Source of the DNA: Verrucomicrobiia bacterium DG1235
GTDB taxonomy: Bacteria > Verrucomicrobiota > Verrucomicrobiia > Opitutales > Opitutaceae
Direction of reading: 5' to 3'
Assembly: GCA_000155695.1 (NCBI GenBank)
Contig: DS990592.1
Span: 1,574,556 to 1,638,555, forward strand
DNA length: 64,000 nucleotides
The stretch's first letter is position 1; each line of letters opens with the position of its first letter. The notes under the pieces are model-generated. The model did not search any database and was not told where the DNA came from. It saw nothing but the letters and a program-made list of their open reading frames with translations. This document shows, piece by piece, positions 11,383 to 40,668 of the stretch. The position numbers and the translations under genes are program-made.

Positions 11383-11386
11383 AAGC

Positions 11387-23542: not shown

Positions 23543-24412
23543 CTAGGAATACCTCTTCAAAAACTCACCCGGCGGGCAGCCCACGTAGCGCTTGAAAGAG
23601 CGATAAAAATACGCGAGATCTTGAAACCCCGACTCGTGGCAGGCGTACGCCACGTGCCCCGTCTCGAGCAAGCGCTCTTTCGCATAATCGATCCGCTTGC
23701 GGTTGAGATAGTCAACCAAAGTGTAGCCGGTGCGCTCTTTGAAAAGCTGGGTGAAGCGACGCGGAGACACCCCGCAACGCTCCGCGACCTCGTCCAAAGA
23801 AACAGGCTTGTCGAAACGGTTATCAAGCTCGTCCAGCAACCCTTCCAACGCCGAACCCGCTCCCCGAACCGGGGCACCGCCGGACTCCGCGCCCCGCAAC
23901 ATCGCTACCACCAACTGTGTAAACAGAGCATGCACCATCGCCGGATGCCCCACTCCCCCTCGTGACTGCTCCAGTAGCATACTTCGAAAACAATCACGCA
24001 TCGTGCTGAAGTGAAAAGCGCTGCGAGCCCGCACCGGCTTACTTCGCGGGAATCGGTCAATAAAGGTCCGGAACACTTCGGCTAACGAACTCTCACCCTC
24101 CGAGGCGCTCTCAGTAGCGCAGGCTATTATCAAGGTCATCGGCTCTGACGGATCGTCCACGAATCGGTGTTCGCAGCCAAGCGGTACGAACGCGAACGAG
24201 TTTGTACCCAAAATCACACGACCATCCTCGAATTCCAAAAAACCACGACCTACCGGAACCCAGCAAATTTTGTGAAACCTCCAACTCCCTTTTTCCATAC
24301 GAAAAGAGGGCGAGTGATGACTTTCCAAAATGTAGATACCTCCTTCAGGCATAGGTACCCCCAATGGAAAATTACGCCGACCTTGTTTATCCTCCCTATT
24401 TCTACCTGCCAT
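23543..24412 (-). CDS. AraC family transcriptional regulator, divergent from corrinoid operon I
   Basis: A 289-residue regulator with an N-terminal cupin-type sensing domain (about 25-115) and a C-terminal AraC/XylS DNA-binding domain (about 195-288). The two helix-turn-helix units are visible in SLDEVAERCGVSPRRFTQLF and in HVAYACHESGFQDLAYFYRS, followed by RYVGCPPGEFLKRY. It is transcribed away from the methyl-transfer operon starting at 24602, with 189 bp between the start codons. It is therefore the natural candidate to sense the operon I substrate and activate it, by position only. Confidence 0.9.
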   Translation of the reverse strand: MAGRNREDKQGRRNFPLGVPMPEGGIYILESHHSPSFRMEKGSWRFHKICWVPVGRGFLEFEDGRVILGTNSFAFVPLGCEHRFVDDPSEPMTLIIACATESASEGESSLAEVFRTFIDRFPRSKPVRARSAFHFSTMRDCFRSMLLEQSRGGVGHPAMVHALFTQLVVAMLRGAESGGAPVRGAGSALEGLLDELDNRFDKPVSLDEVAERCGVSPRRFTQLFKERTGYTLVDYLNRKRIDYAKERLLETGHVAYACHESGFQDLAYFYRSFKRYVGCPPGEFLKRYS

Positions 24413-24601
24413 TTTCTTATCCGTCTACCCAATCAATACCCGTTCAATATATCCTTATTTCATTAAATACAAACAAGTTAAATTGATTCACACCTTCCAC
24501 AAAAGCCCTTACTGCCATATTGTCTAATAGCAATCGACCCAATCACCCAAGACTGAAAAAGCAATCTCTTCTATAGTTCTGCACACCTTACCCCAAAGTC
24601 A
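24413..24601. promoter_or_regulatory. divergent promoter region, AraC gene / corrinoid operon I
   Basis: An AT-rich 189-bp spacer separates two divergent starts and should hold both promoters. I searched by eye for a cobalamin riboswitch (B12 box) and did not find one. No convincing inverted repeat stands out. Confidence 0.45.
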
Positions 24602-25303
24602 GTGCAAGACCTCGAAACCGAAATCATCCAGCTCTCGCCCACCCTCAGCTACGAGAAGATTCTCCACAGCATGGGGATTCCTCAAGGCAAGCCGATCCGC
24701 AAGCGATTAACCCGCCTGATCGACGAGAGCTTACCAATCGCGACTGAGATTGCCCGACCAAAACTCGCTTGGGCGATCGCCCATTCCGACACGATCAAGA
24801 CTGTACTCGGAAATTCGATACGCATCAAACGCTACTTGATATCTCCCGAATCGGCAGCCCTCGCCATCGGCACAGTCGGCAGCGAGTGGGAACACTTCGT
24901 CATGGCGGAAAACGATCCCATGAAGGCCTACATCTACACAGCGATAGCTACCGCGCTAGCTCGCGACACGCTCGTGAAAGCCCGCCGCGAACTTTCCCAA
25001 CGCTATCCGGAAAAGAAGATTGCAGATAGTCTCTCACCCGGTACGGACCACGTGCCTCACGCCCTGCAAACCCAATTCGCAGCAATCCTGCCGCTCGCAA
25101 AAATCGGAGTCACCTTCGATCGCGAATCCTACTTTATGCACCCGTTGGCAACCGTTACTGCCGTCATCGCGTTCGGCACCGCCGTGGAACGAGAACACCC
25201 GCTACCCGAGTGCGGCGAAGCCCAACCTCGCTGCTCTCGTTGTCCGGATCGCAACTGCCAGCTACGCATCGTCCCTTTCGTCAATACGCAAACTGAAAAA
25301 TAA
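24602..25303 (+). CDS. MetH activation-domain-like protein (corrinoid reactivation or methyltransferase partner)
   Basis: This 233-residue protein resembles a free-standing copy of the AdoMet-binding activation domain of cobalamin-dependent methionine synthase. The family pattern is seen in DSLSPGTDHVPHALQ, then LPLAKIGVTFDRESYFMHP, with A-TVTAVIAFGTA where MetH has the KSVSG segment. The C-terminus has cysteines in CGEAQPRCSRCPDRNC, typical of small MetH-activation homologues found beside corrinoid methyltransferases. The predicted role is reductive remethylation of inactive Co(II) corrinoid, or cofactor handling. The start is GTG at 24602. It is the first gene of operon I; the UroD-corrinoid fusion starts 34 bases after its stop. 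Confidence 0.75.
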   Translation: MQDLETEIIQLSPTLSYEKILHSMGIPQGKPIRKRLTRLIDESLPIATEIARPKLAWAIAHSDTIKTVLGNSIRIKRYLISPESAALAIGTVGSEWEHFVMAENDPMKAYIYTAIATALARDTLVKARRELSQRYPEKKIADSLSPGTDHVPHALQTQFAAILPLAKIGVTFDRESYFMHPLATVTAVIAFGTAVEREHPLPECGEAQPRCSRCPDRNCQLRIVPFVNTQTEK

Positions 25304-25337
25304 ATCGTATCCACTGTATAACGACAGTATCCAATTT

Positions 25338-27116
25338 ATGAACAGCCTAGACCTCATGAACAAAGTCCTATCCATGGAGATAGGTGATCGCATCCCCTTC
25401 TGTCCCGCTATCTATGAGCACAAGGGCTTTCTCATCGGCAAGACGCCTTCAGAAATCTGTCGAGATCCAGACCTCCTCGTCGAGGGCCTCCTCGCCGAGT
25501 ACGAGCGCTACAAGCCGGACTTCCTCACCGTCGGTATCGACGTATATAACGTCGAGGCGGAGGCCCTTGGCTGCAAGATCGTCTACTTCGACGACTCTCC
25601 CGACGTCCCGGGCGTCGAGGACTATCCGATTAAGAACCTCGCCGATATCGACAAGCTCAAGATCCCGGATCCGACCAAGGACGGGCGCATGCCGCTCTAT
25701 CTCGAAGCCGCAAAAAAGCTTCATGAAAAAGTCGGCCACGAGATCAAAATCCGCGGAGCGATCACCGGCCCCTTCTCCCTAGCCTCCGAGCTCATGGGAG
25801 CTGAAAACTTCATCGTCATGACCATGCAGGACCCGCAGTACACGGTCAAACTCATGGAGTTCACCGCGCGTGTCGCGGCCGCCTTCGGCAAGGCGTTCAT
25901 CGATATCGGCATCGACCCCATCATCTTCGACTCGCGAGCGATGCCCCCGCTCTGCTCCCCGCAGATTTTCCAAGACATCGTATCCAAAGTGTATAGACGC
26001 ATCCTCATTCCCGAACTTAAGAAGGCGGGAGCGAAGCAAATTCCACTTATCATCGGCGGCGATACCACCCCGATCCTCGATGCCATCATCGACACCGACA
26101 CCACCCAAATTCTCTGCGACTTCGAAGGCGACATTGAGCTCTTTAAGAAAAAGGCGATCGACCACAATCTTCCGATGCGTGTCAACGTCGACCCGCGCCT
26201 CCTCCACCTAGGCCCCATAGACAAAATTCAGGACTTCACCATGAACATCCTGAACAAATGTTGGGATCACCCTGGCTTCATTCTCGGAACTGGTGTCGCC
26301 GCCTACGACTGCCCACCTGAGCATATCGACGCCGTGCGAGCGTGCTTGGATAAAGACTACAAGAACTGGGTTCCTACTCGCCCCATCTTCAAGCAGCAAA
26401 GACAGCAAACCGAGGCCATCGTCATCGAAGAGGAGCCAGGCTATCCAGAAGATCTTGAGCCGGTGCTGCGCGAACTTGCCGAAGCGATCGAAGAAGGCGA
26501 AGAGGACGACGTAGTGGACTTGGTAGAGGAAGCTCTCAACGACGATATTCCACCCGGCGAGATTGTAGACCGAGCCATGATCCCCGCTATGGACGTTATC
26601 GGCTACCGATTCGCCCAAAAGCAGCTCTTCGTACCTGAAATGCTCATCTCCGCCCGAGCGATGAGCGAGGGTCTCAAAATCTTGCGGCCCCTCATCGCCA
26701 AAACTGGGGCCAAACCCGTCGGGCGCGTCTTACTCGGCACCGTTAAAGGGGACATCCACGACATCGGAAAAAACCTGGTCGGCATGATGCTCGAAGGAGC
26801 TGGCTTCGAGATCCTAGATCTCGGCGTCAACGTGCCGGTCGAGAGGTTCATCGCCGCCCTCAAGGAAAACGACATTCACATGATCGGCATGTCCGCCTTG
26901 CTCACCACCACCATGAACTACATGGGACGCGTAATCGAGGCCCTTAAGGACGAAGGGATGCGTGACACGGTCAAAGTCCTCATCGGTGGCGCCCCGATCA
27001 ACGAAAAATTCTGCGACAAGATTGACGCCGACTACTACGCCGATTCGGCAGCCGACGGCGTTATTGCAGCGAAACAAGCCCTCGCCGATCTCAAAGCGAT
27101 GGGCATCTCAGCCTAG
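25338..27116 (+). CDS. CmuA-like fusion: UroD-type methyltransferase + corrinoid-binding protein
   Basis: This 592-residue protein joins an N-terminal MtaA/CmuA-type UroD-fold methyltransferase (about 1-345) to a helical cap domain (about 370-450) and a cobalamin-binding Rossmann domain (about 455-590). The latter has D472-I-H474-D-I-G477 for base-off His-on corrinoid. Domain order and size match chloromethane methyltransferase CmuA. It would demethylate a donor and carry the methyl on cobalt. Where MtaA-type enzymes have the zinc ligands H-x-C-G, this protein reads IIGGDTTP; a later cysteine is present in AAYDCPPEH, so metal binding may differ. The start is placed at ATG 25338, where homology begins; the open frame upstream overlaps the previous gene. 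The stop is followed directly by the next ATG. Confidence 0.85.
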   Translation: MNSLDLMNKVLSMEIGDRIPFCPAIYEHKGFLIGKTPSEICRDPDLLVEGLLAEYERYKPDFLTVGIDVYNVEAEALGCKIVYFDDSPDVPGVEDYPIKNLADIDKLKIPDPTKDGRMPLYLEAAKKLHEKVGHEIKIRGAITGPFSLASELMGAENFIVMTMQDPQYTVKLMEFTARVAAAFGKAFIDIGIDPIIFDSRAMPPLCSPQIFQDIVSKVYRRILIPELKKAGAKQIPLIIGGDTTPILDAIIDTDTTQILCDFEGDIELFKKKAIDHNLPMRVNVDPRLLHLGPIDKIQDFTMNILNKCWDHPGFILGTGVAAYDCPPEHIDAVRACLDKDYKNWVPTRPIFKQQRQQTEAIVIEEEPGYPEDLEPVLRELAEAIEEGEEDDVVDLVEEALNDDIPPGEIVDRAMIPAMDVIGYRFAQKQLFVPEMLISARAMSEGLKILRPLIAKTGAKPVGRVLLGTVKGDIHDIGKNLVGMMLEGAGFEILDLGVNVPVERFIAALKENDIHMIGMSALLTTTMNYMGRVIEALKDEGMRDTVKVLIGGAPINEKFCDKIDADYYADSAADGVIAAKQALADLKAMGISA

Positions 27117-28382
27117 ATGATCTATAACGTCGAAAAGTGGATTAAAGAAAAATCGTTTGGCTGCCAAACCTGCGGCCAATGCATACTCACGCACACGAAG
27201 CTTATCTGTCCCATGAACTGTCCCAAAGGCCTGCGCAACGGGCCTTGCGGGGGTACGCTCGACGGTAAATGCGAAGTGATCCCTGAGATCGACTGCGTCT
27301 GGACGCGTATCGAAAAAAAGAAGACAAAGAAAAATCCAGGCGTTCACCTGCCTCCGGATCCGGACCTTTTGAATACGGCAAGCTACGTCAACTTTTTCAA
27401 CGGTAAGGACCGCGAAACGCGCCTGCCGCACGAATCTCTGGACACCAGCCACATTCCAGCAAGCTCCAATCTCGCCCTCAAGATGCAGCAGGGCGAATTC
27501 GTTGTCACCCTTGAGATCGCATCGCCGCTCACCGAAAAAGGACTAGGACGGGTCGACAAGATAATGAGCCGTGTTGCACCTCACGTCGACGCCGTCAACA
27601 CCACCACAAACGCCGGTGGCATCCCGTCTCTTTCTTCCATTGAAACGGCTAAGGTGGTCCAAGCTTACGACGTCGAGTCGATCATCCAGTTCTGCGGGCG
27701 AGACCACCACGAAACCGATTTTCTGGCCCAAATGGAAGCGGCACTCGAAGCGGGTCACAAAAACTTCCTGCTGCTCACCGGTGATTGGCTGCCCAAGAAG
27801 GATCGCAAAGTGGACCAGCAAACCTGGTTTCCCATGGACAGCGCCCAAATGATCCACTTCGCCAACCAGCGCCTGCATGACTACCTCAAACGACTTGGCG
27901 TAGTGCCCTACCTTGGATGCGCTGCAAACCCTTTTTCCACCCCCATGCCGGTCAGCGTCGACCGCTTGCATTCTAAACGCCACGCCGGCGCTCGCTTTTG
28001 CCAAACCCAAGCCATCACCCACGTCCCGACATTCCGCGAATGGTATCAACAACTCCGCCAAGGTCGCGAAAACGATCCTAAGCTTACCATCCCTTCCATT
28101 CCTCTCGTTGGCAACCACAAGGCCTTCGCCGTTCTCTGCCGCCTTCCCGGCGTCTACGTCGACGAGTCCCTGTACCGCATCATGGAAGGTGAAGATTTTC
28201 AGAGAAAAGCCCTCGATTGGGCATTCGAAATCGCCGAAGGCGTCACAGAACACGGAGCCGCCGGCATACACACGATGAACTTCGGCATGCCTCCGGACCT
28301 CATCGACGAATTCCTTATCCATATACGCGAACGCGCGGAAGCCGCCCGCCTCCGCTCCACGGATACACTTATCAACAGCTAA
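27117..28382 (+). CDS. MetV-MetF fusion, methylenetetrahydrofolate reductase
   Basis: The N-terminal about 60 residues are a MetV/MTHFR_C-type cysteine-rich module (C16, C19, C22, C31, C35, C44, seen in GCQTCGQC, CPMNCPKG and NGPCGG). It is fused to a MetF-type TIM barrel (about 115-410; FVVTLEIASPLTEKG, TTNAGGIPSLSS, NFLLLTGDWL, HTMNFGMP). In acetogens MetV and MetF are usually separate subunits. MetF interconverts methyl-THF and methylene-THF; in this operon the expected direction is oxidation of methyl-THF coming from the corrinoid protein, as proposed for metF in chloromethane users. It begins on the base after the previous stop (TAGATG). Confidence 0.85.
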   Translation: MIYNVEKWIKEKSFGCQTCGQCILTHTKLICPMNCPKGLRNGPCGGTLDGKCEVIPEIDCVWTRIEKKKTKKNPGVHLPPDPDLLNTASYVNFFNGKDRETRLPHESLDTSHIPASSNLALKMQQGEFVVTLEIASPLTEKGLGRVDKIMSRVAPHVDAVNTTTNAGGIPSLSSIETAKVVQAYDVESIIQFCGRDHHETDFLAQMEAALEAGHKNFLLLTGDWLPKKDRKVDQQTWFPMDSAQMIHFANQRLHDYLKRLGVVPYLGCAANPFSTPMPVSVDRLHSKRHAGARFCQTQAITHVPTFREWYQQLRQGRENDPKLTIPSIPLVGNHKAFAVLCRLPGVYVDESLYRIMEGEDFQRKALDWAFEIAEGVTEHGAAGIHTMNFGMPPDLIDEFLIHIRERAEAARLRSTDTLINS

Positions 28383-28395
28383 TTTTTCTACACCT

Positions 28396-29289
28396 ATGTC
28401 GGATTCCAAAGTTCCAACTACTATCATATCATCGAAATCGCATCGGGTACGCATCGCCCCAAATCGCCGCACAGTTGTCATCGGAGAACGCTGCAACGCT
28501 CTTGGCTACAAAAAAGTTCGCGATACCGTAGCTCGTGGAGAGTGGGAAGAAGTCGTCAATCGAGCAGTTGCCCAGTTCGAAGCGGGAGCTGGCGTCATAA
28601 ACATTAATATGGTCGGCCTCGACATTCCTGAAAAAGTCCTCCTCCCAATAGCCGTGACTGCCATTCGCTCGCGTGTCGATTGCCCGCTCTCGATAGACTT
28701 CGGAGACCCCGCCGCTCTCGATGCCGCCTTGGCCAAGGCGGAAGGCCGTTGCCTCATCAATTCCATTTCCGGTGAGCAGGAGAAAATGGACGAGATTTTC
28801 CCCATCGCCAAAAAACACGGGGCTGCTATGGTGGCCATGACTGCCGACGATGACGGCATTCCCTACACCGCGGAAGGGCGCCTAAACTGCGCTCTTAAGA
28901 TTCTGGAAGAAGGGAAAAAATATGGTTTCGGCATTGAGGACTTCATCTTCGACTGCATCGCTATCGGTGTAGCCACTGACGTTGGCGCTGGTCGTTGTAC
29001 GATGGATACCATGAAGCTCATCCGCGAAAAGCTGAATGCAAACATCACGCTTGGCGCTTCCAATGTCAGCTTCGGCATGCCAAAGCGAAAAACCCTCGAT
29101 GCCTACTATCTCGCCATTGCCATTACTTACGGCCTCAATGCGCCGATCACCGACATCACCCATCCCGCCCTCAAGTGGTCCATCCTTACCGCTGACACCG
29201 TCAATGGCACCGATAAACTGGGCATGAAATTCATCCGCGAATCGCGTTTAGAAAAAGCTGCAGCCAACGCTACCGTATCTTCAAAATGA
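28396..29289 (+). CDS. pterin-binding methyltransferase (methyl-THF:corrinoid type, MeTr/AcsE-like)
   Basis: This 297-residue TIM barrel is of the dihydropteroate synthase/MeTr superfamily. It carries VIGERCNALGYKK near the start, GAGVININMVG, a CPLSIDFGDP segment, and GASNVSFGMPKR, equivalent to the folate-binding GxSNxSFG stretch of MetH and AcsE. The expected job is transfer of methyl from methylcobalamin on the fusion protein to tetrahydrofolate, the role of CmuB in chloromethane metabolism. The 13-base gap to the upstream gene and ATGA overlap (29286-29289) with the next gene place it inside operon I. Confidence 0.85.
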   Translation: MSDSKVPTTIISSKSHRVRIAPNRRTVVIGERCNALGYKKVRDTVARGEWEEVVNRAVAQFEAGAGVININMVGLDIPEKVLLPIAVTAIRSRVDCPLSIDFGDPAALDAALAKAEGRCLINSISGEQEKMDEIFPIAKKHGAAMVAMTADDDGIPYTAEGRLNCALKILEEGKKYGFGIEDFIFDCIAIGVATDVGAGRCTMDTMKLIREKLNANITLGASNVSFGMPKRKTLDAYYLAIAITYGLNAPITDITHPALKWSILTADTVNGTDKLGMKFIRESRLEKAAANATVSSK

Positions 29290-30488
29290 ATACATATATT
29301 CGCTGCGACGGATATTTTTCGGAACGTTCCCATCACGGACCCTTCTGGATACTCATTCGCGAGGGGAAGATTGCCGAGATACGCCAATCTCCTCCAGAAG
29401 ATGATAGCGACTCATCGCTAGTAGACTTTCCAGATGGAGCCTACCTGCTTCCCCTTCTGGCCGACACCCATGCTCACGTCTACATGAACCCCTGGCCGCT
29501 CGCTCCCAGTGAACGGCTTCACCCTGGGTCTCAAAGCTTCGAAATCGAGGTCGACGACGCCACTGAACGCCTTGGTAGGGCCCTTGCCAAAGGCATTGGC
29601 TTCGTTCGCGACATGGGTGATCCACTGGGAATAAACACAGCCGTCAAACACCGGGCATTAAATAACCCAAACCGATTCCCCGCCTACCACATTCCCGGCC
29701 CAGCCATTCATCGACCTAGCAAATACGGACGCTTCCTCGGTGTTATGCGCAAGACAATGCCGGAGGTTCACTCCTTGATCGATGAACTGGTCGAGAAGCA
29801 AAACATCGATTTCATAAAGGTTGTCTCAACAGGAATCGTCGACTTCGCAAATCGCCGCGTCAAACAGCTCCCTCAATTCACGAGACCAGAACTACGCGAA
29901 GTCGTTGACCACGCGGAATCCATTGGCCTCAAGGTAGCCTCCCACTGTTCAGGTGAAGATGGTATCGATAACAATATCGAAGGCGGTATCCACTTTATCG
30001 AACACGCTTATTTTATCCGCCCCGACCAACGGCAAAAGCTTCTCGACCAAAGCCAATACTGGACCCCTACTTTCGCTCCGGTTTACCAGCAAGCAGTCAA
30101 CCAAGCCTGCGGATGGGACGCTCGCACCCGGAGTTCCCTCTACCAAATTCTATCCGATCACAATCAGGCCATCGCCGAAGGACACGCGCAAGGAATGAAA
30201 ATTCTCGCAGGTACAGATGCTGGCAGTCCGGGCGTCGATATCGGCGACGGCCTTATCGTCGAGCTCCAGAGTCTCGCCCTCAGTATCCCTTTCGAGGAGG
30301 TTCTCCGCATTGCTACCGCTGTCAACGCGGACGCGTGCTCACATTCTCAATACACCGGACGTATTGCGGTCGGACATTCCGCCTCCTTCGCTCTCTACTC
30401 TCGTGCCCCATGGCAAGAGCCTTCGCAGCTCGGCCAACCGCGCGAAGTCTACCAACACGGACAACTCGTCCACGACACCTCCGCCTGA
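29286..30488 (+). CDS. amidohydrolase superfamily metal-dependent hydrolase
   Basis: A 400-residue amidohydrolase. It has the metal motif H62-A-H64 in LADTHAHVYM, a candidate carboxylated lysine in FIKVVSTG, histidines in ASHCSGEDG and FIEHAYF, and the conserved aspartate in LAGTDAGSPG. The arrangement resembles imidazolonepropionase and prolidase-type members, which cleave C-N bonds in cyclic amides or peptides. Starting within the methyltransferase gene (ATGA overlap), it is surely co-expressed with the methyl-transfer genes. It could prepare the methyl donor or process the demethylated product. Substrate unknown. Confidence 0.85.
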   Translation: MNTYIRCDGYFSERSHHGPFWILIREGKIAEIRQSPPEDDSDSSLVDFPDGAYLLPLLADTHAHVYMNPWPLAPSERLHPGSQSFEIEVDDATERLGRALAKGIGFVRDMGDPLGINTAVKHRALNNPNRFPAYHIPGPAIHRPSKYGRFLGVMRKTMPEVHSLIDELVEKQNIDFIKVVSTGIVDFANRRVKQLPQFTRPELREVVDHAESIGLKVASHCSGEDGIDNNIEGGIHFIEHAYFIRPDQRQKLLDQSQYWTPTFAPVYQQAVNQACGWDARTRSSLYQILSDHNQAIAEGHAQGMKILAGTDAGSPGVDIGDGLIVELQSLALSIPFEEVLRIATAVNADACSHSQYTGRIAVGHSASFALYSRAPWQEPSQLGQPREVYQHGQLVHDTSA

Positions 30489-30500
30489 AAGCCGCCGCCT

Positions 30501-32222
30501 ATGCACAAGATCGAAATCGAAGCTACTTGCAATCTCGCAGAGCATTTACGCAATCAACGCCTTCCGCTCAAGATGTCGTGCGGCGGCCATGGCTCCTGCC
30601 GCACCTGCCGCGTCATGCTCGATGGTGAACCTGTCCTCGCCTGCCAAACCGAAGTGCAGCCGGGCGAATACGACATCACCATTCCAGAATCTGCCGCATC
30701 GAGCGCCAATATTCAGATCGATCTCTCAACCTTAGAAGAAGGCTTGATCTGCGAAACACCACGTTGGAAAACGCTTTCCGTAGAGGTACCTGAAGCTGAA
30801 ACCGAAGCAAACGCCTCGAATCGTCAACGCCTCGAAAAAGTCCTTCCTCAAGGAATCAGTCTCTCCCCCCATTTTTTCGATACAATCTCAAGTGACGCTA
30901 TCGAAGGCCCGCTCACGCTTGCCTGCTTCGATTCCGTCGCCCGCTTTCCCATTCAAACCAAAGAGCGTCGGTCCTTCGCCATAGCCGTAGATATTGGCAC
31001 TACCACCCTAGCCGCTGCTCTGATTGATCTAAACTCCCGCTCCCTCATTGCCTGCAATGGACGGCTCAACGCCCAATACGCCTATTCAGAAGACCTCGTA
31101 GCCCGTATCGCTTTTTGCCATACACCTGAACTGCTTGAGGAAATGCGAGACCTAGGTCTCAAACACACGCTCATCCCGCTCGTTAAGCACCTGCTCAAAG
31201 AAGCAAATGTATCGAGAAAAGACTTACTCGCAACCGTTCTTTCCGGCAACTCACCCATGATCCACATTCTGCTCGGACTAGACCCAACCGGGATGGGTGG
31301 ATGGCCTTTCAACGGAATCGACTACGCCCCTCCCCCTCGCCCTGCCAGCGACCACGGACTACCAGGAGAACACCTTGAATTCATCCCCTCAAAAAGCGCG
31401 TACCTCGGTGGTGACATTGTCAGCGGCCTCGCGCTCATCGATTTCGCCAACGCTCCAGACGGCACCCTCTTCGTCGACCTCGGCACCAATGCCGAAATTG
31501 CTCTCAAAGCCGGTGGCAAGATTCTCTGCACAGCTGTCCCTGCAGGACCCTCCTTTGAAGGCGGCGGCTTCCCCTGCGGCGTCAGCGCAATCCCCGGAGC
31601 CATCGATCACGTTTGGGAAGACGACGGAAATTTACGCTATTCCACTATCGGTGACGAGGCTGCCATTGGACTCTGTGGCTCAGGTATCATTTCATTCGTA
31701 GCTGCGGCCTTTAGAGCCCGAATCCTTCGCAAAAAAGGTCGCTACGCGCGACGGAACCAGCAGGTCGAAGAACGCGAGCTCGTCGGCCACTTGCAGCGCG
31801 TTTTCCCCATCACCGATGAAGTCTATATCAGCGAAGAAGACATCAATGCATTCCTCCAAGCGAAAGCAGCCGTCTTCTCAGGCATCATCACACTCTGCAA
31901 AATCGCCGAGCTCGATCTTGCCGACCTCGATAAGCTCTATCTAGCCGGAAACTTCGGCAAACGCGTTCGCACAGCCGACCTCATGGATATTGGCATCATC
32001 CCTCCAATTCCTGCCGATAAGATCGAAGCCTGCGGAAACACATCCCTAAAGGGAGCGATTTATTCCACTCTCGACCAGCAGGCTCTTTCCCGCATGCAAG
32101 ATCTCATCACAAAATTAGAGTTCATAGAACTCAACGCCCAAGCTACTTTTCAAGACGACTTCATCAATGCCCTCTTCATCCCCCACCTCAAACTGGACTT
32201 CGGTCTGAGCAAAGAAGCCTAA
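30501..32222 (+). CDS. corrinoid-reactivating ATPase with 2Fe-2S domain (RACo/RamA functional type, DUF4445)
   Basis: An N-terminal plant-type 2Fe-2S ferredoxin domain (about 1-75) has C27, C33, C36 and C48 (CGGHGSCRTC motif). It is followed by an ASKHA ATPase fold (about 155-540) with VDIGTTTLAAALIDL and FVDLGTNAEIAL phosphate motifs and GLCGSGIISF. Such proteins use ATP to drive reduction of accidentally oxidised Co(II) corrinoid to Co(I). Length is normal for the short ferredoxin-ASKHA group. It is the last gene of operon I, 12 bases after the amidohydrolase, and converges with an AraC gene. Confidence 0.88.
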   Translation: MHKIEIEATCNLAEHLRNQRLPLKMSCGGHGSCRTCRVMLDGEPVLACQTEVQPGEYDITIPESAASSANIQIDLSTLEEGLICETPRWKTLSVEVPEAETEANASNRQRLEKVLPQGISLSPHFFDTISSDAIEGPLTLACFDSVARFPIQTKERRSFAIAVDIGTTTLAAALIDLNSRSLIACNGRLNAQYAYSEDLVARIAFCHTPELLEEMRDLGLKHTLIPLVKHLLKEANVSRKDLLATVLSGNSPMIHILLGLDPTGMGGWPFNGIDYAPPPRPASDHGLPGEHLEFIPSKSAYLGGDIVSGLALIDFANAPDGTLFVDLGTNAEIALKAGGKILCTAVPAGPSFEGGGFPCGVSAIPGAIDHVWEDDGNLRYSTIGDEAAIGLCGSGIISFVAAAFRARILRKKGRYARRNQQVEERELVGHLQRVFPITDEVYISEEDINAFLQAKAAVFSGIITLCKIAELDLADLDKLYLAGNFGKRVRTADLMDIGIIPPIPADKIEACGNTSLKGAIYSTLDQQALSRMQDLITKLEFIELNAQATFQDDFINALFIPHLKLDFGLSKEA

Positions 32223-32325
32223 TCGCACCTAGTCCGCTCCCACTAAAGGTTAAAGTCAGTCAGAACCGGTAGACGTTTACCGCCATACTCCAATTCAACA
32301 TCCAGCTTCGGTTTATCAAATTTCT

Positions 32326-33243
32326 CTAAACGAAGCGTTTGCGGTATTCACTTGGGGACATGCTAAAGGATTTTCGAAACAAGCGCGTGAAATGAGCGCT
32401 ATCGGAAAAGCCGAGTCGATGAGCGATCTCGCTAAAATTCTCACGTGAATGCATCAGCGCCCAGCCAGCGTGTTGCATGCGGCGTCTCTGAAAACAACTC
32501 ATCGGGCTTTCGCCAACCTGCTTGCTGAAACAGCGAGTTAAGTAGTCAGGCGTGTAGCCAACCGCCTCAGCCCATGCCTTAACATTGCACGCTTTGCTAT
32601 CGCCCAATGTTTTCTCAATGCATCTATAAACGTGCTGCACGAGCCGGTCCTGCATGAAGTCGCAATCGAGCGTGAGCTGCCCACTCAACTCCTCCTCAAG
32701 CAGAGCAAAGCACTTCATCAAAGACGCCCGCATCAAAACTTGGTTCGCTTTTTCTACTTTAGAAAGGCTTTCCAAAAATTGCAGTTCACGTGTTAGGTGC
32801 TCCGCAGTCGATTCGCTTAGCGAAACATGAACTGGTACCGGAATCGCTCTGTCCGGAAAGAGGTTGTATCCAAAAAATAGCATACAGAGCCCCGGCGCTT
32901 CTTGCAGCAGACTGGCATCTCTCAGCAACCATTCCGCAAGGTAGTAGATATTGTAAACATACAAATTAGCTGGTTTGTCGATAGCATGAACTTGCCCCGG
33001 GGAAACAATCAGAAAATCACCCGTTTCCAGAGCTCGTTTACTCCCGTCTACTCGATGAATGCCTTGTCCTGACCGAACTAGGACAAGCTCGTAAAACTCG
33101 TGATCGTGAGCAGCTACGGGCGAGGATATCTTTTCCACATTCTCTACACGAATCGGATGCGTGACTGAAAGTCGAACGTGCTCCTGGGAAACCGTGTACG
33201 ATGGGTACAGCATATCGGAAATATTCAAGAATGAGTCTGTCAC
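32326..33243 (-). CDS. AraC family transcriptional regulator, divergent from corrinoid operon II
   Basis: A 305-residue protein with an N-terminal cupin arm (about 35-120; HDHEFYELVLVRSGQGIH, GDFLIVSPGQVHAI) and a C-terminal AraC domain (about 205-303). The helix-turn-helix pair is in AWAEAVGYTPDYLTRCFSKQ and FSEIAHRLGFSDSAHFTRLF, ending SPSEYRKRF. Only 57 bp separate its start from the UroD gene of operon II on the other strand, so it very likely controls that operon. The spacer holds an inverted repeat at 33253-33268. Confidence 0.92.
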   Translation of the reverse strand: MTDSFLNISDMLYPSYTVSQEHVRLSVTHPIRVENVEKISSPVAAHDHEFYELVLVRSGQGIHRVDGSKRALETGDFLIVSPGQVHAIDKPANLYVYNIYYLAEWLLRDASLLQEAPGLCMLFFGYNLFPDRAIPVPVHVSLSESTAEHLTRELQFLESLSKVEKANQVLMRASLMKCFALLEEELSGQLTLDCDFMQDRLVQHVYRCIEKTLGDSKACNVKAWAEAVGYTPDYLTRCFSKQVGESPMSCFQRRRMQHAGWALMHSRENFSEIAHRLGFSDSAHFTRLFRKSFSMSPSEYRKRFV

Positions 33244-33252
33244 AATTCAAGC

Positions 33253-33268
33253 AATTATTAGAATAATT
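33253..33268. promoter_or_regulatory. inverted repeat in the divergent AraC/operon II promoter
   Basis: AATTATT-AG-AATAATT is a perfect 7-bp palindrome with a 2-base spacer, inside the 57-bp region between two divergent start codons. It is a candidate operator for the adjacent regulator, although AraC proteins more often bind direct repeats. Confidence 0.4.
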
Positions 33269-33300
33269 CGCTACCCTAAAATTCCATACAGTTTTTTCCT

Positions 33301-34272
33301 ATGACCTCTAAAGAACGAGTCGAAGCTGTCATCCGGCATGAAAAGCCTGACCGAATGCCGATTTACGGTTGGGTACGCTATAACATGAAAGACAAGATCG
33401 ACGAGCGCTTCGGCTCAGTCGAAGCCTTCGAAGATCATTACGCCTTCGACCTAGCTCATTTGTTTGGCGGCCCTGACGCCTATTTCATTGGCGATGAATA
33501 CACGCGAAAGAAAGAAGCGGGTGAAGAAATAGAACCTCCGGATGTCTTGAACCTTCCCCTAAACAATCCGGAAGAGGATAAGGACTTCGATAATCTTCGA
33601 GCTGAAATCAAACACCACAAGGAAGTGCGATCACGTTTTGTCTACGTACAGACGCCGGGACTTTTCGAGCAATTGAATACTGTTTTCGGAATCGAGAACC
33701 ACCTCTGCTACCTTCTCGAATATCCTGATGAGATAAAAGAGATCTACCGCAGGCAAGCGGAGTGGAATCGGAAATTCGCCGGCAAGTGCCTAGATCTAGG
33801 CGTAGACATGATTCACGTGTCGGATGACTGGGGCAGTCAAAAGAGCTTATTGTTCAGCCCAGATATTTGGTGGGATATGATCTACCCTGGTCAGAAACTG
33901 GTGGCCGACTACGTGAAAGGACGCGGTGGACACATAAGTTTGCATAGCGATGGCGACATCAACCTCGTAGTCGATGGCATCAAGAAAATCGGGTACGACG
34001 TAGTCCACCCATGGCAGGAGTCCGCTGGAATGAGCTACGAGGATTTCCTGAAAAATCATAGCGATAGCTTTTCAATAATGAGCGGCTACGACATTCAGAC
34101 GACTCTAGGATTCGGTCGCCTCGACGATGTGAGATCCGCGGCGGAAAGAGTGGTTCGACTATTCGGAAATGGCGGGCTGATATTCTGCACTACTCACTTC
34201 GTGCAGGACCACTGCAGCATAGATGAACTTGTCTTCGCCTACGACACCATATGCGAGCTTACCAGAACATAG
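33301..34272 (+). CDS. UroD-fold methyltransferase family protein
   Basis: A 323-residue member of the uroporphyrinogen decarboxylase superfamily, not a heme-pathway HemE. It begins MTSKERVEAVIRHEKPDRMP, the usual start of corrinoid-linked UroD methyltransferases. The active-site strand reads GGHISLHSDGDINLVVDG, with H-x-D in place of the H-x-C of MtaA, and near the C-terminus LIFCTTHFVQDHCSIDEL. Its partner is the stand-alone corrinoid protein 36 bases downstream. By analogy it is the substrate-specific methyltransferase (MT1) of operon II, acting on an unknown methyl donor. Confidence 0.85.
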   Translation: MTSKERVEAVIRHEKPDRMPIYGWVRYNMKDKIDERFGSVEAFEDHYAFDLAHLFGGPDAYFIGDEYTRKKEAGEEIEPPDVLNLPLNNPEEDKDFDNLRAEIKHHKEVRSRFVYVQTPGLFEQLNTVFGIENHLCYLLEYPDEIKEIYRRQAEWNRKFAGKCLDLGVDMIHVSDDWGSQKSLLFSPDIWWDMIYPGQKLVADYVKGRGGHISLHSDGDINLVVDGIKKIGYDVVHPWQESAGMSYEDFLKNHSDSFSIMSGYDIQTTLGFGRLDDVRSAAERVVRLFGNGGLIFCTTHFVQDHCSIDELVFAYDTICELTRT

Positions 34273-34308
34273 ATAACTTCATTTTTCTAAACTAACTGGG
34301 AACATGTA

Positions 34309-34941
34309 ATGAATGATCCACTACAACAATTAATAGAAGCGATAAAGGTCGGCAACCGAAAGATTGCCGCCACAGCAACCCAGACCGCCTTGGACTCGGG
34401 ATCCTCTGGCAAGGAAGTCCTAGGCGCCCTGTCCGAGGGCATGGACGATGTCGGGAAACGCTTCAAAGCCAACGAGATTTTCGTGCCTGAAGTTCTAGTG
34501 GCAGCTCGTGCCATGAAGAAAAGTATGGAGTTGCTCGAGCCAATCTTGGTAAAATCAGGCATCAAGCCCGAACACACCCTTGTAATTGGCACGGTCAAAG
34601 GCGATTTGCACGACATCGGAAAGAACCTCGTAGCGATGATGATGAAAGGAGCCAATTTCAATGTTATCGATCTCGGCACCAATCTTCCCGCTCAAACGAT
34701 TCTCGACGCGGCGATTGAGCATAAAGCGGATCTAGTCGGTCTCTCCGCCTTGCTGACCACCACTATGCCAGCGATGCGAGAAACGGTCGCTCTTATGAAC
34801 AAAGAGCCTCACCCATTCAAAATCATTGTTGGCGGAGCTCCTATCACTCAGGATTTCGCCGACGATATTGGGGCTGATGGATTCGCCATTGACGCCGCGA
34901 GCACCGTCGAACTCGCCCGAACACTCGTCACAAGCTCCTAG
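34309..34941 (+). CDS. stand-alone corrinoid protein (MtbC/MttC-like)
   Basis: This 210-residue protein has the standard two-domain corrinoid carrier layout: a helical cap (about 1-85, with RFKANEIFVPEVLVAARAMK) and a cobalamin-binding domain (about 88-208) with GTVKGDLHDIGKN. H101 is the lower axial cobalt ligand. It also has LVGLSALLTTTMPAM and IIVGGAPITQDFADDIGAD, which bind the corrin tail. It would accept methyl from the upstream UroD protein and donate it to the downstream UroD-thioredoxin protein or to the operon I methyltransferase. Closely similar in motif wording to the C-terminal half of the fusion at 25338, so the two share recent ancestry. Confidence 0.93.
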   Translation: MNDPLQQLIEAIKVGNRKIAATATQTALDSGSSGKEVLGALSEGMDDVGKRFKANEIFVPEVLVAARAMKKSMELLEPILVKSGIKPEHTLVIGTVKGDLHDIGKNLVAMMMKGANFNVIDLGTNLPAQTILDAAIEHKADLVGLSALLTTTMPAMRETVALMNKEPHPFKIIVGGAPITQDFADDIGADGFAIDAASTVELARTLVTSS

Positions 34942-34977
34942 AAAAAGGCACACATCCATACACGTACCCATAAAATA

Positions 34978-36345
34978 ATGACAGGAAAAGAGATTCTCCT
35001 TAGAGCATTGAAATGCGAAGCCACTCCACGCGTTCCATGGGTACCCTTTGTCGGCGTACATGGAGGAGCATTGATCGGTGTCGACGCGAAGGACTATCTT
35101 GAATCCACAGAGCATATTGTATCTGGGCTAAAGGCTTCTGCCAAGCGCTACAGACCCGATGGCTTACCTGTCGTGTTCGACCTTCAGCTCGAAGCGGAAG
35201 TACTAGGCTGTCAACTTGCATGGGCGCAAGAAACGCCACCAGCGGTGATTTCTCACCCACTGGATGCCGGCTACGCGATCAAAGCGCTGCCCACCTTATC
35301 AGTCGAGAAGGGGCGCCTGCCCCTGGCGCTCCAAGCTATTCGAGAAACAAAAAAAGAGCTTGGTGAAGAGATCGCTCTTTATGGCTTGCTGACTGGGCCG
35401 CTCACCCTCGCGCTACACCTGCGAGGCGATGACGTGCTCCTTGATATGTTCGACGAAGAAGAAGGCGTTGTCGCACTGCTCGACTACTGCGCGGAGATCG
35501 CAAATCAAATGGTCGACGCCTATCTCGACGCTGGCATCGACGTGATCGCAGTGGTTGATCCAATGATCAGCCAAATCGGTCCGAGCCATTTCACCGATTG
35601 GGTCGCGCCTCGCCTTGATGAAGTATTTAGCTACGTCCGAAAAAAGGGAGCTCTCTCCTCACTCTTCGTATGCGGAAACGCGACGCGAAACTTAGCAGCC
35701 ATGTGCGCCACTCAATGCGACAATATTTCCGTGGATGAGAATGTAGATCTCGCAGAGCTAGCAAAAGTCGCGCGAGCTGCCGGCAAATCATTCGGAGGCA
35801 ATCTGCAGCTCACCAAAATCTTGCTGCTAGGTGATGAAGCGGATGCGAAACGCGAAGTCGTCCGATGTCTCGATCAAGCGGGCGATGGCGGCGGTTTCAT
35901 TCTCGCTCCGGGATGCGACCTCCCCTACGCCGTCAAACCAGAAAACCTAGAGGCAGTAGCAGCTCTCGTTCACGATCCCTATCTAATTGAAGTCGCTCGC
36001 AATCTTCCACCAAAAGACTCGACCGATACCTTCGACGACATTCCCATACCCGACTACGCCGCCGAAAACCAAGTACTTGTAGACATTGTCACACTCGACT
36101 CCGCGGGCTGCGCTCCCTGCGCCTATATGCTAAAAGCGGCGCAGAAAGCGGCGGACGAATACGGAGGAACCATAGACGTCAGGGAACACAAGATAACCAC
36201 CCGAGATGGCCTCGCCTATATGGCAAAACTCGGCGTCACCGCGATCCCCAGCATTTGCGTAGACGGGCGAGAACGATTCGCTTCCATCATCCCGCAACGC
36301 AAAGAGCTTGTCGCATGCTACCAGACTGCTGCCGCAGCAAAATGA
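34978..36345 (+). CDS. UroD-type methyltransferase fused to a C-terminal thioredoxin-like domain
   Basis: Residues about 1-345 form an MtaA/MtbA-like UroD barrel. It has SLFVCGNATRNL, where H-x-C-G becomes F-x-C-G, and FILAPGCDLPYAVKPEN, carrying the later zinc-ligand cysteine. Residues about 362-455 form a thioredoxin-like domain with C378-A-P-C381 (GCAPC) and a cis-proline segment TAIPSICVDG. MtbA-type proteins move methyl from corrinoid to a thiol, so a built-in redox dithiol is suggestive: it could be the acceptor, or reduce the active site or corrinoid. I do not know a characterised protein with this fusion. It overlaps the next gene by four bases (ATGA, 36342-36345). Confidence 0.85.
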   Translation: MTGKEILLRALKCEATPRVPWVPFVGVHGGALIGVDAKDYLESTEHIVSGLKASAKRYRPDGLPVVFDLQLEAEVLGCQLAWAQETPPAVISHPLDAGYAIKALPTLSVEKGRLPLALQAIRETKKELGEEIALYGLLTGPLTLALHLRGDDVLLDMFDEEEGVVALLDYCAEIANQMVDAYLDAGIDVIAVVDPMISQIGPSHFTDWVAPRLDEVFSYVRKKGALSSLFVCGNATRNLAAMCATQCDNISVDENVDLAELAKVARAAGKSFGGNLQLTKILLLGDEADAKREVVRCLDQAGDGGGFILAPGCDLPYAVKPENLEAVAALVHDPYLIEVARNLPPKDSTDTFDDIPIPDYAAENQVLVDIVTLDSAGCAPCAYMLKAAQKAADEYGGTIDVREHKITTRDGLAYMAKLGVTAIPSICVDGRERFASIIPQRKELVACYQTAAAAK

Positions 36346-37244
36346 AAATTCCTCTCGTCCTCGTCACCGGGTTTCTAGGGAGCGGAAAAACCACCTTCCT
36401 CCGTCGAATAGCCGAATCGAATCCTGAATGGCGACTCATGTTTCTCGTCAACGAATTCTCCGAAACCAGCATCGATGAGAGCATCCTAGCAAAAACCGGC
36501 ACGCCAACGCAAAGCATCGTAGGTGGCAGCCTCTTCTGTGAATGCAAAGCAGGCGACTTCATCCGCGTCATGCGAGAAACCGTTCTCGCCGCACACCGCG
36601 AGCAAGCGTTGGATGCCGTATTCATCGAGACAAGCGGAACAGCGGACCCGGATGCTATCGGCAAGCTGGTTCAAATCCATGGCTTAGACGAGTACTTCGA
36701 ATTGTGCCGCATCGTGAGCATCGTATCTCCACTAAGATTCAAGAAACTGATCCGTCACCTCCCTGTAATTGAAAATCAGATACTATTCAGCGATCTAGTC
36801 ATTATAAATAAAATAGATACCGCTAGCGAAGACACGCTTAACTCGGTAGAATCTCAAATACGTCTCCACAACAACGATACGGAAATTGTGAGAGCGAAAA
36901 TGTGTAGGACCCCGTTCTCTTTGACAGCTTCATTGCTCCGAATTCCACAAGGCGATCTCTCTACCTGTGACGCAAATCCATTCGCCACCGTTTCAGCAAG
37001 CTGGCCCAAAGAGCGAAGCATCGATGAACTATACAAATGGATAGAAGCGCTACCTTCATCAATTCTACGTATAAAGGGTGAAATCCAGACTCCCGAAGGA
37101 AGCTGGCAAGTGGACAAGACAGTGGATACAACCGAAATCACTCCTATCTTGCAGAGCAACAGCTCGCCATCATCACGCTTGGTCCTAATCGCCCACGAGA
37201 ATCATGAATCAATCCTCGAAAAAGCAATCCAATGGTTTCAATGA
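36342..37244 (+). CDS. G3E family (CobW-like) P-loop GTPase
   Basis: G3E GTPases insert or deliver metals or cobalamin to target enzymes. Start ATG 36342 gives MKIPLVLVTGFLGSGKTTF, with Walker A at residues 10-18. IINKID is the NKxD guanine motif. The usual metal-binding CxCC is reduced to C-E-C-K (GGSLFCECKAGD), so one ligand is missing. IETSGTADPDAI matches the switch region of the family. Co-translation with the UroD-thioredoxin protein suggests it loads zinc or cobalamin into these methyltransferases, an inference. It is about 300 residues long, at the short end for CobW-like proteins. Confidence 0.88.
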   Translation: MKIPLVLVTGFLGSGKTTFLRRIAESNPEWRLMFLVNEFSETSIDESILAKTGTPTQSIVGGSLFCECKAGDFIRVMRETVLAAHREQALDAVFIETSGTADPDAIGKLVQIHGLDEYFELCRIVSIVSPLRFKKLIRHLPVIENQILFSDLVIINKIDTASEDTLNSVESQIRLHNNDTEIVRAKMCRTPFSLTASLLRIPQGDLSTCDANPFATVSASWPKERSIDELYKWIEALPSSILRIKGEIQTPEGSWQVDKTVDTTEITPILQSNSSPSSRLVLIAHENHESILEKAIQWFQ

Positions 37245-37245
37245 A

Positions 37246-37977
37246 ATGAAAGCGGCACCGGAGACTCTCAAATACTCTGTCATCGCCTGCGATGTTTTCA
37301 AAGAGGAGCTCGAATCGCTAGGTGGCGAAAAACCACCTTGGTCTGGTATTCAATACTTGGAGATGGGACTTCACGACCAACCGGATCTACTAAGAAAGTC
37401 TATTTCAATCGCTCTGAGAAAACTAGAGATGAATGCGAGCATCGAAGCAATTGTCTTCGTATATGGTCTTTGCGGAACTGGGCTCGTAGGCATATCACCG
37501 AGCCGCTGCCCCATCATCATTCCCCGAGCTCACGACTGTGTATCCATTCTTCTTGGATCGCCGAAACGGCACAGCGAGATTCTTCAGAAATATCCCGAAG
37601 CCTATTTCTATTCTCCTGGCTGGGTACGTGGAAAACGCGCCCCAGGACCGGATCGCGAGAAGCATTTGCGAGCCTTTTACACTCAACGCTACGGCGACGA
37701 TCAAGAGCTCGTGGACGAACTCCTCGAAGCGGATAAAGAGAGTTTCGCGCACCATAACTGCGCGGCGTACGTGGACCTGACCCAGAATGAAAAGGCTGAG
37801 GACTATTGTAAAAGCTGCGCTCACTCTCTCGGCTGGAAATTCAGAAAACTGGAAGGCGATCCGCGCCTTCTTCACGATTTGCTCTACGGCCCTTGGGACG
37901 ACAAACGTTTCCTGATCGTCCAGCCCGGACGCTCTATCGCTCTGAGCACAGATTCTAAGGTCCTCCGCGAGCAATAG
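37246..37977 (+). CDS. DUF1638 domain protein
   Basis: A protein of about 243 residues with the DUF1638 hallmarks VFVYGLCGTGLVGI, IIPRAHDCVSILLGS and a C-terminal cysteine group (HHNCAAYVD, YCKSCAHSLGW). DUF1638 proteins are often found beside corrinoid methyltransferases; their function is unknown to me. I place the start at ATG 37246, one base after the G3E stop. ATG 37204 in the same frame would add 14 polar residues and overlap the G3E gene by 41 bases. Last gene of operon II. The conserved Cys and His could bind metal or a corrinoid. Confidence 0.8.
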   Translation: MKAAPETLKYSVIACDVFKEELESLGGEKPPWSGIQYLEMGLHDQPDLLRKSISIALRKLEMNASIEAIVFVYGLCGTGLVGISPSRCPIIIPRAHDCVSILLGSPKRHSEILQKYPEAYFYSPGWVRGKRAPGPDREKHLRAFYTQRYGDDQELVDELLEADKESFAHHNCAAYVDLTQNEKAEDYCKSCAHSLGWKFRKLEGDPRLLHDLLYGPWDDKRFLIVQPGRSIALSTDSKVLREQ

Positions 37978-38060
37978 CGGAATTGGCGCACACGTTGCTA
38001 TGCGTAGGCATCCCTATCCCGCGTCGCGTTCACTAGGCAACAATTACCAAACGAAACGCA

Positions 38061-38735
38061 ATGATCAGCCAAACAACAAACAACGCCCCGCTTCCAACAA
38101 CGCAAACTGCCGCTACGCAATCCACTCAAGCTTCCAATCCCAACAGATCCTTCGAAGCGATCATGGACGACTACTGGTCCGATCCAAATAAAGAAAGTTC
38201 GCTCGATTACCTGAATCAACTCTCCTATAATGATCTGAAGACCGTCGGCAACGCCCACGGATTCGCCGACCCAACACCAAATTTAAACGGCATTTCCACC
38301 GAAGGCGCTAACAATTTACTGCGAGCAAAAGGTCACACCATCGACGAGAACCGAGACGGAATCGACCAAATTGGCGAGGCAAATATCTGGCGTTTCCCCA
38401 ATAGCAATACTCCTCCCGAAGTCGCCGCTGCCTGGAAGGAATCTACTGCCGATATGAGCGACATGGAAGCAATGCTCATGGCCACTCCCTTTATGCCGCT
38501 TCCCATGGTCATCACAAACGAGTCGACGGGCACACAGCAATTTATCCACCCCGGTGACGAAGGCTATGTGAACCCACAGCTAAGCGGTGGATACTCCTTT
38601 ATGAGCACGCTTGAAAACAGCCTTCGCGTCTTGGACGACCCAAGCAATCCCCCGGCAAATATCGAATTCTACAAAAAGCAGAAAGCCTTCTTCAAAAAGC
38701 TTCTCGACGCATTCGAACGCCATGAGGTCGCTTGA
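38061..38735 (+). CDS. hypothetical protein, no recognised family
   Basis: I cannot assign this 224-residue protein. It has no signal peptide or membrane helix. The N-terminal 35 residues are low-complexity (T, Q, N, A, S), suggesting disorder. The middle part has one EF-hand-like stretch (DENRDGIDQIGEANIW) that could bind calcium. It then has a methionine/proline-rich segment and a lysine/phenylalanine-rich helical C-terminus. It stands alone: 83 bp after operon II and 202 bp before a symporter, on the same strand. Codon use looks like the neighbours, which supports a real gene. Confidence 0.6.
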   Translation: MISQTTNNAPLPTTQTAATQSTQASNPNRSFEAIMDDYWSDPNKESSLDYLNQLSYNDLKTVGNAHGFADPTPNLNGISTEGANNLLRAKGHTIDENRDGIDQIGEANIWRFPNSNTPPEVAAAWKESTADMSDMEAMLMATPFMPLPMVITNESTGTQQFIHPGDEGYVNPQLSGGYSFMSTLENSLRVLDDPSNPPANIEFYKKQKAFFKKLLDAFERHEVA

Positions 38736-40656: not shown

Positions 40657-40668
40657 CACCACGACAGG

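Follow-up and report, generated by a model that had tools for sequence, protein, structure and literature searches.

We analysed a stretch of 64,000 nucleotides from the genome of Verrucomicrobiia bacterium DG1235 (assembly GCA_000155695.1, contig DS990592.1, positions 1,574,556 to 1,638,555; hereafter the window) that contains two neighbouring sets of plus-strand genes related to corrinoid-dependent methyl transfer, each with a divergent AraC regulator gene. The window lies in a contig of 5.5 Mb within an assembly of 5.78 Mb that is 96.5% complete. Searches of the window proteins with curated profiles placed most of the named genes well above chance (Table 1). Operon I encodes, in this order, ActD, a UroD protein fused to a corrinoid-binding domain (UroD1), a MetV-MetF fusion (MetVF), a pterin-binding methyltransferase, an amidohydrolase and a RACo-type corrinoid activase. 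Operon II encodes UroD2, a free corrinoid protein, a UroD-thioredoxin fusion (UroD3-Trx), a G3E GTPase and a DUF1638 protein. The stop of UroD1 and the start of MetVF abut at 27116/27117, and there are overlaps of 4 bp between the pterin and amidohydrolase genes and between the UroD3-Trx and GTPase genes, all of which fits two transcription units. A consensus scan of positions 23400-41000 was uninformative, with 8 promoter-like sites against an expectation of 11.7 (sd 3.8) and 29 terminator-like sites against one of 19.2 (sd 5.2). The UroD1 fusion most likely starts at the ATG at 25338 rather than at the listed TTG at 25020. This gene content and the divergent AraC genes had been called in an original prediction made from the letters of the window, and the profiles bore both out, the call of a protein like those that activate MetH (ActD) being the weak one.

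Table 1 Features of the two operons and of their surroundings in the window
Feature	Position	Strand	Evidence
AraC1 regulator	23543-24412	-	HTH_18 75 bits; divergent from operon I
ActD, MetH-activation-like (weak assignment)	24602-25303	+	1j6r E 0.03
UroD1 fused to corrinoid-binding domain	25338-27116	+	URO-D 150 bits, B12-binding_2, B12-binding
MetV-MetF fusion	27117-28382	+	DUF5981 at 4-71, MTHFR at 123-387
Pterin-binding methyltransferase	28396-29289	+	Pterin_bind 77 bits
Amidohydrolase	29286-30488	+	Amidohydro_1 67 bits
RACo-type ferredoxin-ASKHA corrinoid activase	30501-32222	+	Fer2, Raco_middle, RACo_C_ter 243 bits
AraC2 regulator	32326-33243	-	HTH_18 86 bits, AraC_binding; divergent from operon II
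UroD2	33301-34272	+	URO-D 46 bits
Free corrinoid protein	34309-34941	+	B12-binding_2, B12-binding
UroD3-thioredoxin fusion	34978-36345	+	URO-D 198 bits, Thioredoxin_3 27 bits
G3E (CobW-type) GTPase	36342-37244	+	cobW 114 bits
DUF1638 protein	37246-37977	+	DUF1638 121 bits
Sodium:solute symporter	38938-40656	+	SSF 115 bits

Relatives of UroD1 (39-45% identity) were found in eight other genomes by searches of the order and of the phylum (177 and 387 genomes). In all eight the match stops with the UroD part, and none of them carries a corrinoid domain as a fusion; two further matches in the phylum (G192 and G501) are different UroD genes adjoining a corrinoid gene. Locus L195 holds UroD1, a separate corrinoid protein, MetVF, the pterin enzyme, the amidohydrolase (here on the minus strand) and RACo, and in L046 the UroD1 gene is found with MetVF, the pterin enzyme, the amidohydrolase and RACo. 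In two genomes of the family (L040 and L194) UroD1 shares an operon with MetVF and a gene similar to the tetrahydrofolate (THF)-dependent O-demethylases LigM and DesA. The L040 protein matched LigM in the Protein Data Bank (PDB, 5x1i) with 439 bits and the NCBIfam model NF047633 with 567 bits, under the cut-off of 800, and its L194 counterpart is 84% identical to it. Two other loci (L041 and L193) have UroD1 beside a Rieske gene; the L041 Rieske protein is above the cut-off of Pfam VanA_C and that of L193 is 80% identical. Thus genes of one or the other kind adjoin the UroD1 relatives in four of the eight loci, indicating that an O-methyl compound is the likeliest donor. In six of the eight loci a gene similar to AraC1 (alignments of 272-288 residues) is located near UroD1, and these six full-length genes are the best matches of AraC1 among the 41 other open reading frames (ORFs) that it hit in the loci searched. 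In a tree of 44 rows, rooted only at the midpoint and built without MtvB, OdmB, VdmB and MtoB, the UroD1 group joins UroD3-Trx (97/81), and CmuA, on a long branch, comes next with weaker support (91/77).

The metal sites of these proteins were compared taking the H-x-C...C of MtaA as reference. CmuA has H-x-C...C, UroD3 F-x-C...C, UroD2 H-x-D...H and UroD4, encoded elsewhere in the host genome, H-x-D with the third ligand absent, while UroD1 has I-x-G and V at these positions and keeps none of the three ligands. The zinc motif of O-demethylases is E-X14-E-X20-H, and it was absent from all nine UroD segments inspected (UroD1 to UroD4 and five UroD1 relatives). From its domains, UroD1 is predicted to be a donor:corrinoid methyltransferase plus methyl carrier. 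A metal-free enzyme of this kind is plausible because zinc is not always needed in the first methyltransferase (MTI) of the O-demethylase type, the haloalkane enzyme CdmB and a Moorella O-demethylase both functioning without it, according to the sections of PMC13222342 available. The positions in UroD2 are H215-x-D217...H299, with H215 and H299 invariant in 18 of 18 UroD2-type sequences, that of the window included (conservation was computed without L145, a row read on the wrong strand). The accessible part of PMC10418091 associates H-C-C with sulphur or selenium donors and carboxylate replacements with oxygen donors, and by this rule the residues of UroD2 place it in the oxygen-donor kind. 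Its structural model (pLDDT, the predicted local distance difference test score, 87.5) has the fold of the UroD superfamily, with UroD (Z 25.8) and MtaA (Z 25.0) tied as best matches; the alignment behind this model includes the wrong-strand row. UroD2 is a probable donor:corrinoid methyltransferase. The free corrinoid protein next to it scored 180 bits against an MtgC-like profile (cut-off 370), and the DUF1638 protein is a probable partner in corrinoid reactivation, on account of what is described in excerpts of PMC5764234.

The other proteins of operon I are assigned with different strength. ActD matched nothing in Pfam or NCBIfam, reached an entry for methionine synthase (1j6r) in the PDB only marginally and has a single relative (25%, in L124), so that its assignment as MetH-activation-like is weak. 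The MetV part comes first in the MetVF of the window, the opposite of the order in the four relatives tested (L032, L034, L046 and L051). The pterin-binding enzyme, predicted to act as the methyl-corrinoid:THF methyltransferase (MTII), scored 214.5 bits with PRK07535 (cut-off 259) and matched PDB entries 2yci and 4o0q, and RACo scored 312 bits with the AcsV profile (cut-off 800). The amidohydrolase matched amidohydrolases, imidazolonepropionases and carboxypeptidase-like proteins in the PDB. Relatives of it adjoin the MetVF and pterin genes in L034, L046, L051 and L195; amidohydrolases recur in clusters of this type, and we came across no function attributed to them. By analogy with the hutI-like gene of the chloromethane (cmu) cluster our guess is that it may be a methenyl- or formyl-THF hydrolase.

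The most interesting part of the locus, outside the emphasis of the original prediction, is the pair formed by UroD3-Trx and its GTPase. Residues F230, C232, C313, C378, P380 and C381 are invariant across 66 UroD3-Trx sequences, which keep two of the three metal ligands, both as cysteines, with F230 in place of the histidine. The structural model (pLDDT 93, predicted template modelling score 0.90) superimposed on MtaA (4ay8) with Z 42.7 and 1.8 A over 326 residues, UroD entries coming next (Z 37); the fold is MtaA-like and the metal site altered. Of the 176 other genomes searched in the order, 6 encode full-length versions (55-73%), at 7 places. A scan of GTDB gave at least 593 stretches with the pattern, 556 of these encoding a relative; 80 loci were kept and 6 duplicate contigs dropped, and the remaining 74 made 81 together with 7 further loci. 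Those of the scan come from Opitutales, Kiritimatiellales, Lentisphaerae, Planctomycetota, Hydrogenedentota, Bacteroidetes/Prolixibacteraceae, SAR324, WS1 and others. Where at least 1.2 kb of downstream sequence is available, 61 of 73 loci have a GTPase gene no more than 2.5 kb downstream of UroD3-Trx and in its orientation (45 of 75 with a stricter gap rule applied to stop-to-stop frames). For the 45 loci flanked by 4 kb of sequence to either side, we counted genes on the strand of UroD3-Trx up to a distance of 6 kb, and found the GTPase in 38, a corrinoid protein in 22, a UroD2-like protein in 15, DUF1638 and RACo in 12 each and MtaB in 2. These counts indicate that the firm unit is UroD3-Trx plus GTPase, and that the larger cassette is frequent in Opitutales loci and not universal. 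The comparison of gene order across phyla proposed in the original prediction thus shows a widespread pair but not a universal cassette.

The surroundings of UroD3-Trx also contain a different kind of partner. Nine loci have, at most 6 kb away and on the strand of UroD3-Trx, an ORF recognised by its sequence as homocysteine-methyltransferase-like. In three of them, from Bacteroidota, it is placed between UroD3-Trx and the GTPase, and in L078 and L126 matches to PF02574 coincide with it in position. Among 25 genomes with UroD3-Trx all had B12-binding_2, 21 had it in a frame of 200-260 aa, and 6 lacked it in any frame of 850 aa or more, where gaps in metagenome-assembled genomes are possible; PF02574 was present in all 12 genomes searched. 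A link with selenoproteins was considered because the thioredoxin and GTPase domains weakly match NF047660 and NF041053, and in the phylum search matches appeared in 4 of 288 genomes, none above cut-off. Both families are listed in the portion of PMC13188914 consulted, outside this gene context, and neither this text nor that of PMC11264602, as far as the parts available go, gives an account of the cluster. In the titles, abstract beginnings and passages searched, we found no description of a UroD-thioredoxin fusion with a G3E GTPase and no role for it.

The best support for a THF branch shared by both operons comes from a single contig that is in our set twice (L034/L062), where MetVF, the pterin enzyme, the amidohydrolase, the corrinoid protein, UroD3-Trx, the GTPase, DUF1638, RACo and a UroD gene make up a single run, all in the same orientation. 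Within the window DUF1638 is found without RACo in operon II and RACo without DUF1638 in operon I, and in many relatives the two adjoin. Much of the gene set recurs in Opitutales, including Pelagicoccus mobilis, which has a cassette like operon II (L057). Another Opitutales cassette (L036) consists of MtaB, a corrinoid protein, UroD-Trx, the GTPase, DUF1638 and RACo; here the donor slot (9600-10979) is occupied by a member of the methanol methyltransferase family (MtaB, PF12176, E 2.5e-160). An additional H-C-C UroD is present in L034, L036 and L057. In L034 (15758-20000) an H-C-C UroD gene is followed by those of a ferredoxin, a cytochrome P450 and a symporter-like protein, which may be neighbours with a part in oxidative demethylation.

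The host genome also encodes FolD and PurU (359 bits, cut-off 286). Formate-THF ligase was not found in the host assembly, 96.5% complete, by a search that was positive in 4 of 14 control genomes. A full-length MetH, with homocysteine and B12 domains, is encoded elsewhere, indicating that the cluster is not needed for methionine. There are six UroD matches in the host, of which the best was taken as hemE, three are in the window, one is at C6:1224470 and one is a short piece. The copy at C6:1224470 is UroD4, and belongs to a second cluster (L051, G000:C6:1213000-1232999, 5988-17685) with the order UroD4, corrinoid protein, MetVF, pterin enzyme and amidohydrolase (the start position of the latter is not fixed). 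It adjoins a D-xylonate dehydratase (TIGR03432 1068 bits, cut-off 808), a gene resembling mannonate dehydratase (scores below the NCBIfam cut-offs) and a short-chain dehydrogenase/reductase, and just past it, on the opposite strand, there are RACo and a lone homocysteine-methyltransferase ORF. This second cluster is a candidate for the demethylation of a sugar acid, for example 4-O-methylglucuronate. In the window itself, a glucosamine-isomerase gene and a heparinase II/III-like gene are located downstream of the operons. The symporter in Table 1 is a possible uptake system whose link to the operons is uncertain, and two ORFs, 38061-38735 (224 aa) and 44331-46259 (642 aa), have no Pfam family.

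Of the known systems, the four-component O-demethylases (MtvB/OdmB/VdmB/MtoB type) resemble the locus in having a UroD-superfamily MTI, a corrinoid carrier, a pterin MTII and a RACo-type activase, which are found together in the window as well. Unlike them, operon I has a fused corrinoid domain, MetVF and an amidohydrolase, and the likeness is one of gene content; CdmB, MtvB and MtoB had no entry among the sequence or fold matches listed, which excludes nothing. The mec dichloromethane cassette, as described in the parts of PMC9768040 seen, has likewise three UroD-superfamily proteins, a corrinoid protein, a pterin MTII and reactivation proteins, but it is accompanied by a two-component regulator instead of AraC, and the thioredoxin fusion, the GTPase, MetVF and the amidohydrolase are features of the window. 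With the MtgC/split methionine synthase system of Roseobacters (excerpts of PMC5764234 and PMC12478193) the locus shares an MtgC-type free corrinoid protein, a RACo-like activase and DUF1638, the methyltransferases being others there and UroD proteins here.

From the gene content, the gene order, the residues of the metal sites and the presence of FolD and PurU, all of them observed, we infer with moderate confidence that the two operons together encode a single inducible system for corrinoid-dependent demethylation, each providing one half of it. To this inferred part belong all the reactions, the two donors, the way in which the operons are regulated and what UroD3-Trx, the GTPase and the amidohydrolase do. 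Such a system would follow a known biochemical principle, in which methyl groups pass from a donor to B12, then to THF and finally to formate, in an assembly that is modular and unusual. The first donor would be served by UroD1 and the corrinoid domain fused to it, the second by UroD2 and the separate corrinoid protein, each pair taking methyl groups to cob(I)alamin; both donors are most likely O-methyl compounds, for example methoxylated aromatics or methyl ethers of sugars. The pterin-binding enzyme would then transfer the methyl group to THF, MetVF would convert methyl-THF to methylene-THF, and FolD and PurU would take this to formate, while RACo with DUF1638, and perhaps ActD, would return oxidised cobalamin to its active, reduced state. 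The substrate of the amidohydrolase is probably a folate or the donor itself, and UroD3-Trx may be an MtaA-like second methyltransferase or a methyl shuttle whose metal site the GTPase would load or guard. Corrinoid methyl transfer to THF with oxidation, as originally predicted, is supported by the profiles of the cluster and by FolD and PurU, AraC control by the regulators that accompany UroD1, and the sharing of one THF branch by the single run of L034/L062 and by DUF1638 and RACo being split between the operons and adjacent in relatives; L195 has an operon with the content of operon I except ActD. Two donor-specific arms are plausible, but the role of UroD3-Trx leaves this point open, and the novelty of the full set in such genomes holds for the literature searched, in the extracts available, but not for its gene content, much of which recurs in Opitutales.

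Several observations weigh against this demethylation system. The neighbours of UroD1 vary by locus, two loci (L042 and L045) fitting neither of the patterns given above, and the Rieske protein of L041 had no NCBIfam O-demethylase match, its best model being methylsterol monooxygenase, well under cut-off. The UroD1 of the window branches outside its eight relatives (support 100/99 for the eight and 100/100 with the window protein). The MetVF of operon I is distant from those of the relatives (mostly the MetV part, 30-45% over 64-121 aa), as are the pterin enzyme (24-27%) and RACo (26-35%), and therefore operon I may have another origin and substrate. Position 217 of UroD2 is C in 12 of the 18 sequences and D in 6, so the metal site varies within the family, and 21 of the 45 well-covered UroD3-Trx loci have no corrinoid, UroD2-like, DUF1638, RACo or MtaB partner nearby. 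The homocysteine-methyltransferase neighbours and the genomes without a MetH-sized frame suggest in addition that UroD3-Trx may serve more than one acceptor, against pure methylotrophy.

A true chloromethane or methyl halide system, with UroD1-corrinoid as CmuA, is very unlikely. MetF and CmuB belong to the cmu THF route, and the cmu cluster of Methylorubrum extorquens CM4 (pCMU01) resembles the locus in the domain order of CmuA, a second small UroD-family protein, an amidohydrolase gene and FolD and PurU in the route; the zinc-free CdmB (PMC13222342, same sections) would also fit. However, UroD1 is 24.7% identical to CmuA over 607 aa and only 21.5% in the UroD part, where H, C and C are missing, it scores 99.8 bits with TIGR01463 (cut-off 235.4) against 456 for CmuA itself, and its eight relatives are not fused. 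The pCMU01 amidohydrolase (L184 33495-34727) is hutI-like (296.6 bits, cut-off 298.15) and has no significant blastp match to that of the window, and the annotation of the 50 kb examined in pCMU01 lists no UroD-Trx, GTPase, DUF1638 or RACo. By this direct comparison CmuA membership of UroD1 was rejected, and the special tie to chloromethane in the original prediction is not supported, given the motif, the profile score and the several relatives located by O-demethylase-like genes. Quite unlikely too is a salvage of S- or Se-methyl groups like that of type 1 mlp clusters, in which UroD3-Trx would act on methylated thiols or selenols. The MtaA fold of UroD3 with its two ligand cysteines and the H-C-C UroD of some relatives (L034, L036 and L057) speak for it, and such clusters also have several UroD proteins, one corrinoid protein and one RACo. 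Their definition, in the part of PMC10418091 seen, asks for at least two Mlps, a corrinoid protein and Ram in one direction with gaps under 2 kb, and no THF methyltransferase within 20 kb. In the window UroD2, UroD3 and the corrinoid protein belong to operon II, and RACo, in operon I, is separated from them by a divergent AraC gene. The pterin MTII is present, which that definition excludes, and UroD3 differs in its F-C-C site (H-C-C in mlp), its thioredoxin fusion and the GTPase.

Housekeeping of methionine or cofactors, by a split methionine-synthase-like set in which UroD3-Trx and the GTPase supply methyl groups to homocysteine, is also unlikely. It draws on the 9 loci with a homocysteine S-methyltransferase-like ORF and on the 6 of 25 genomes without a MetH-sized B12 protein, but the host has a full-length MetH, a homocysteine methyltransferase gene was not found in either operon, and the two AraC genes, together with the variety of UroD donors, suggest a catabolic function. 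Less improbable, and overlapping with the demethylation system that we prefer, is a pathway that cleaves methyl ethers solely to release the skeleton of a sugar or uronate, with the one-carbon unit as a by-product and not a food source. This is possible, if on balance unlikely. The dehydratase genes beside the second host cluster, the glucosamine-isomerase and heparinase II/III-like genes downstream in the window and an arabinofuranosidase gene adjoining UroD1 in L041 are in its favour, while neither operon was found to include an enzyme specific to sugars and the LigM/DesA-like neighbours point to aromatics.

A more general idea, tentative and of rather low probability, is that UroD3-Trx and the G3E GTPase constitute an undescribed methyl-transfer module, a common hub in bacteria of the Planctomycetota-Verrucomicrobiota-Chlamydiota (PVC) group and others. 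The MtaA-type barrel without its histidine ligand would pass methyl groups between corrinoid proteins and the attached dithiol C-x-P-C, the thioredoxin replacing coenzyme M or regenerating the two active-site cysteines and the GTPase loading metal or cofactor, with donor parts (UroD variants, MtaB) and acceptor parts (pterin enzyme, homocysteine methyltransferase) plugging in. The pair is in any case a conserved family with a known fold and an altered metal site, to which no reaction is assigned in the portions of the literature searched. Catabolic pathways with corrinoid methyl transfer to THF are known chiefly from anaerobes, from some methylotrophs and from Roseobacters. If our reading of the two operons as one demethylation system is true, Opitutales and other PVC bacteria would have a modular B12 toolkit for removing methyl groups and oxidising them.

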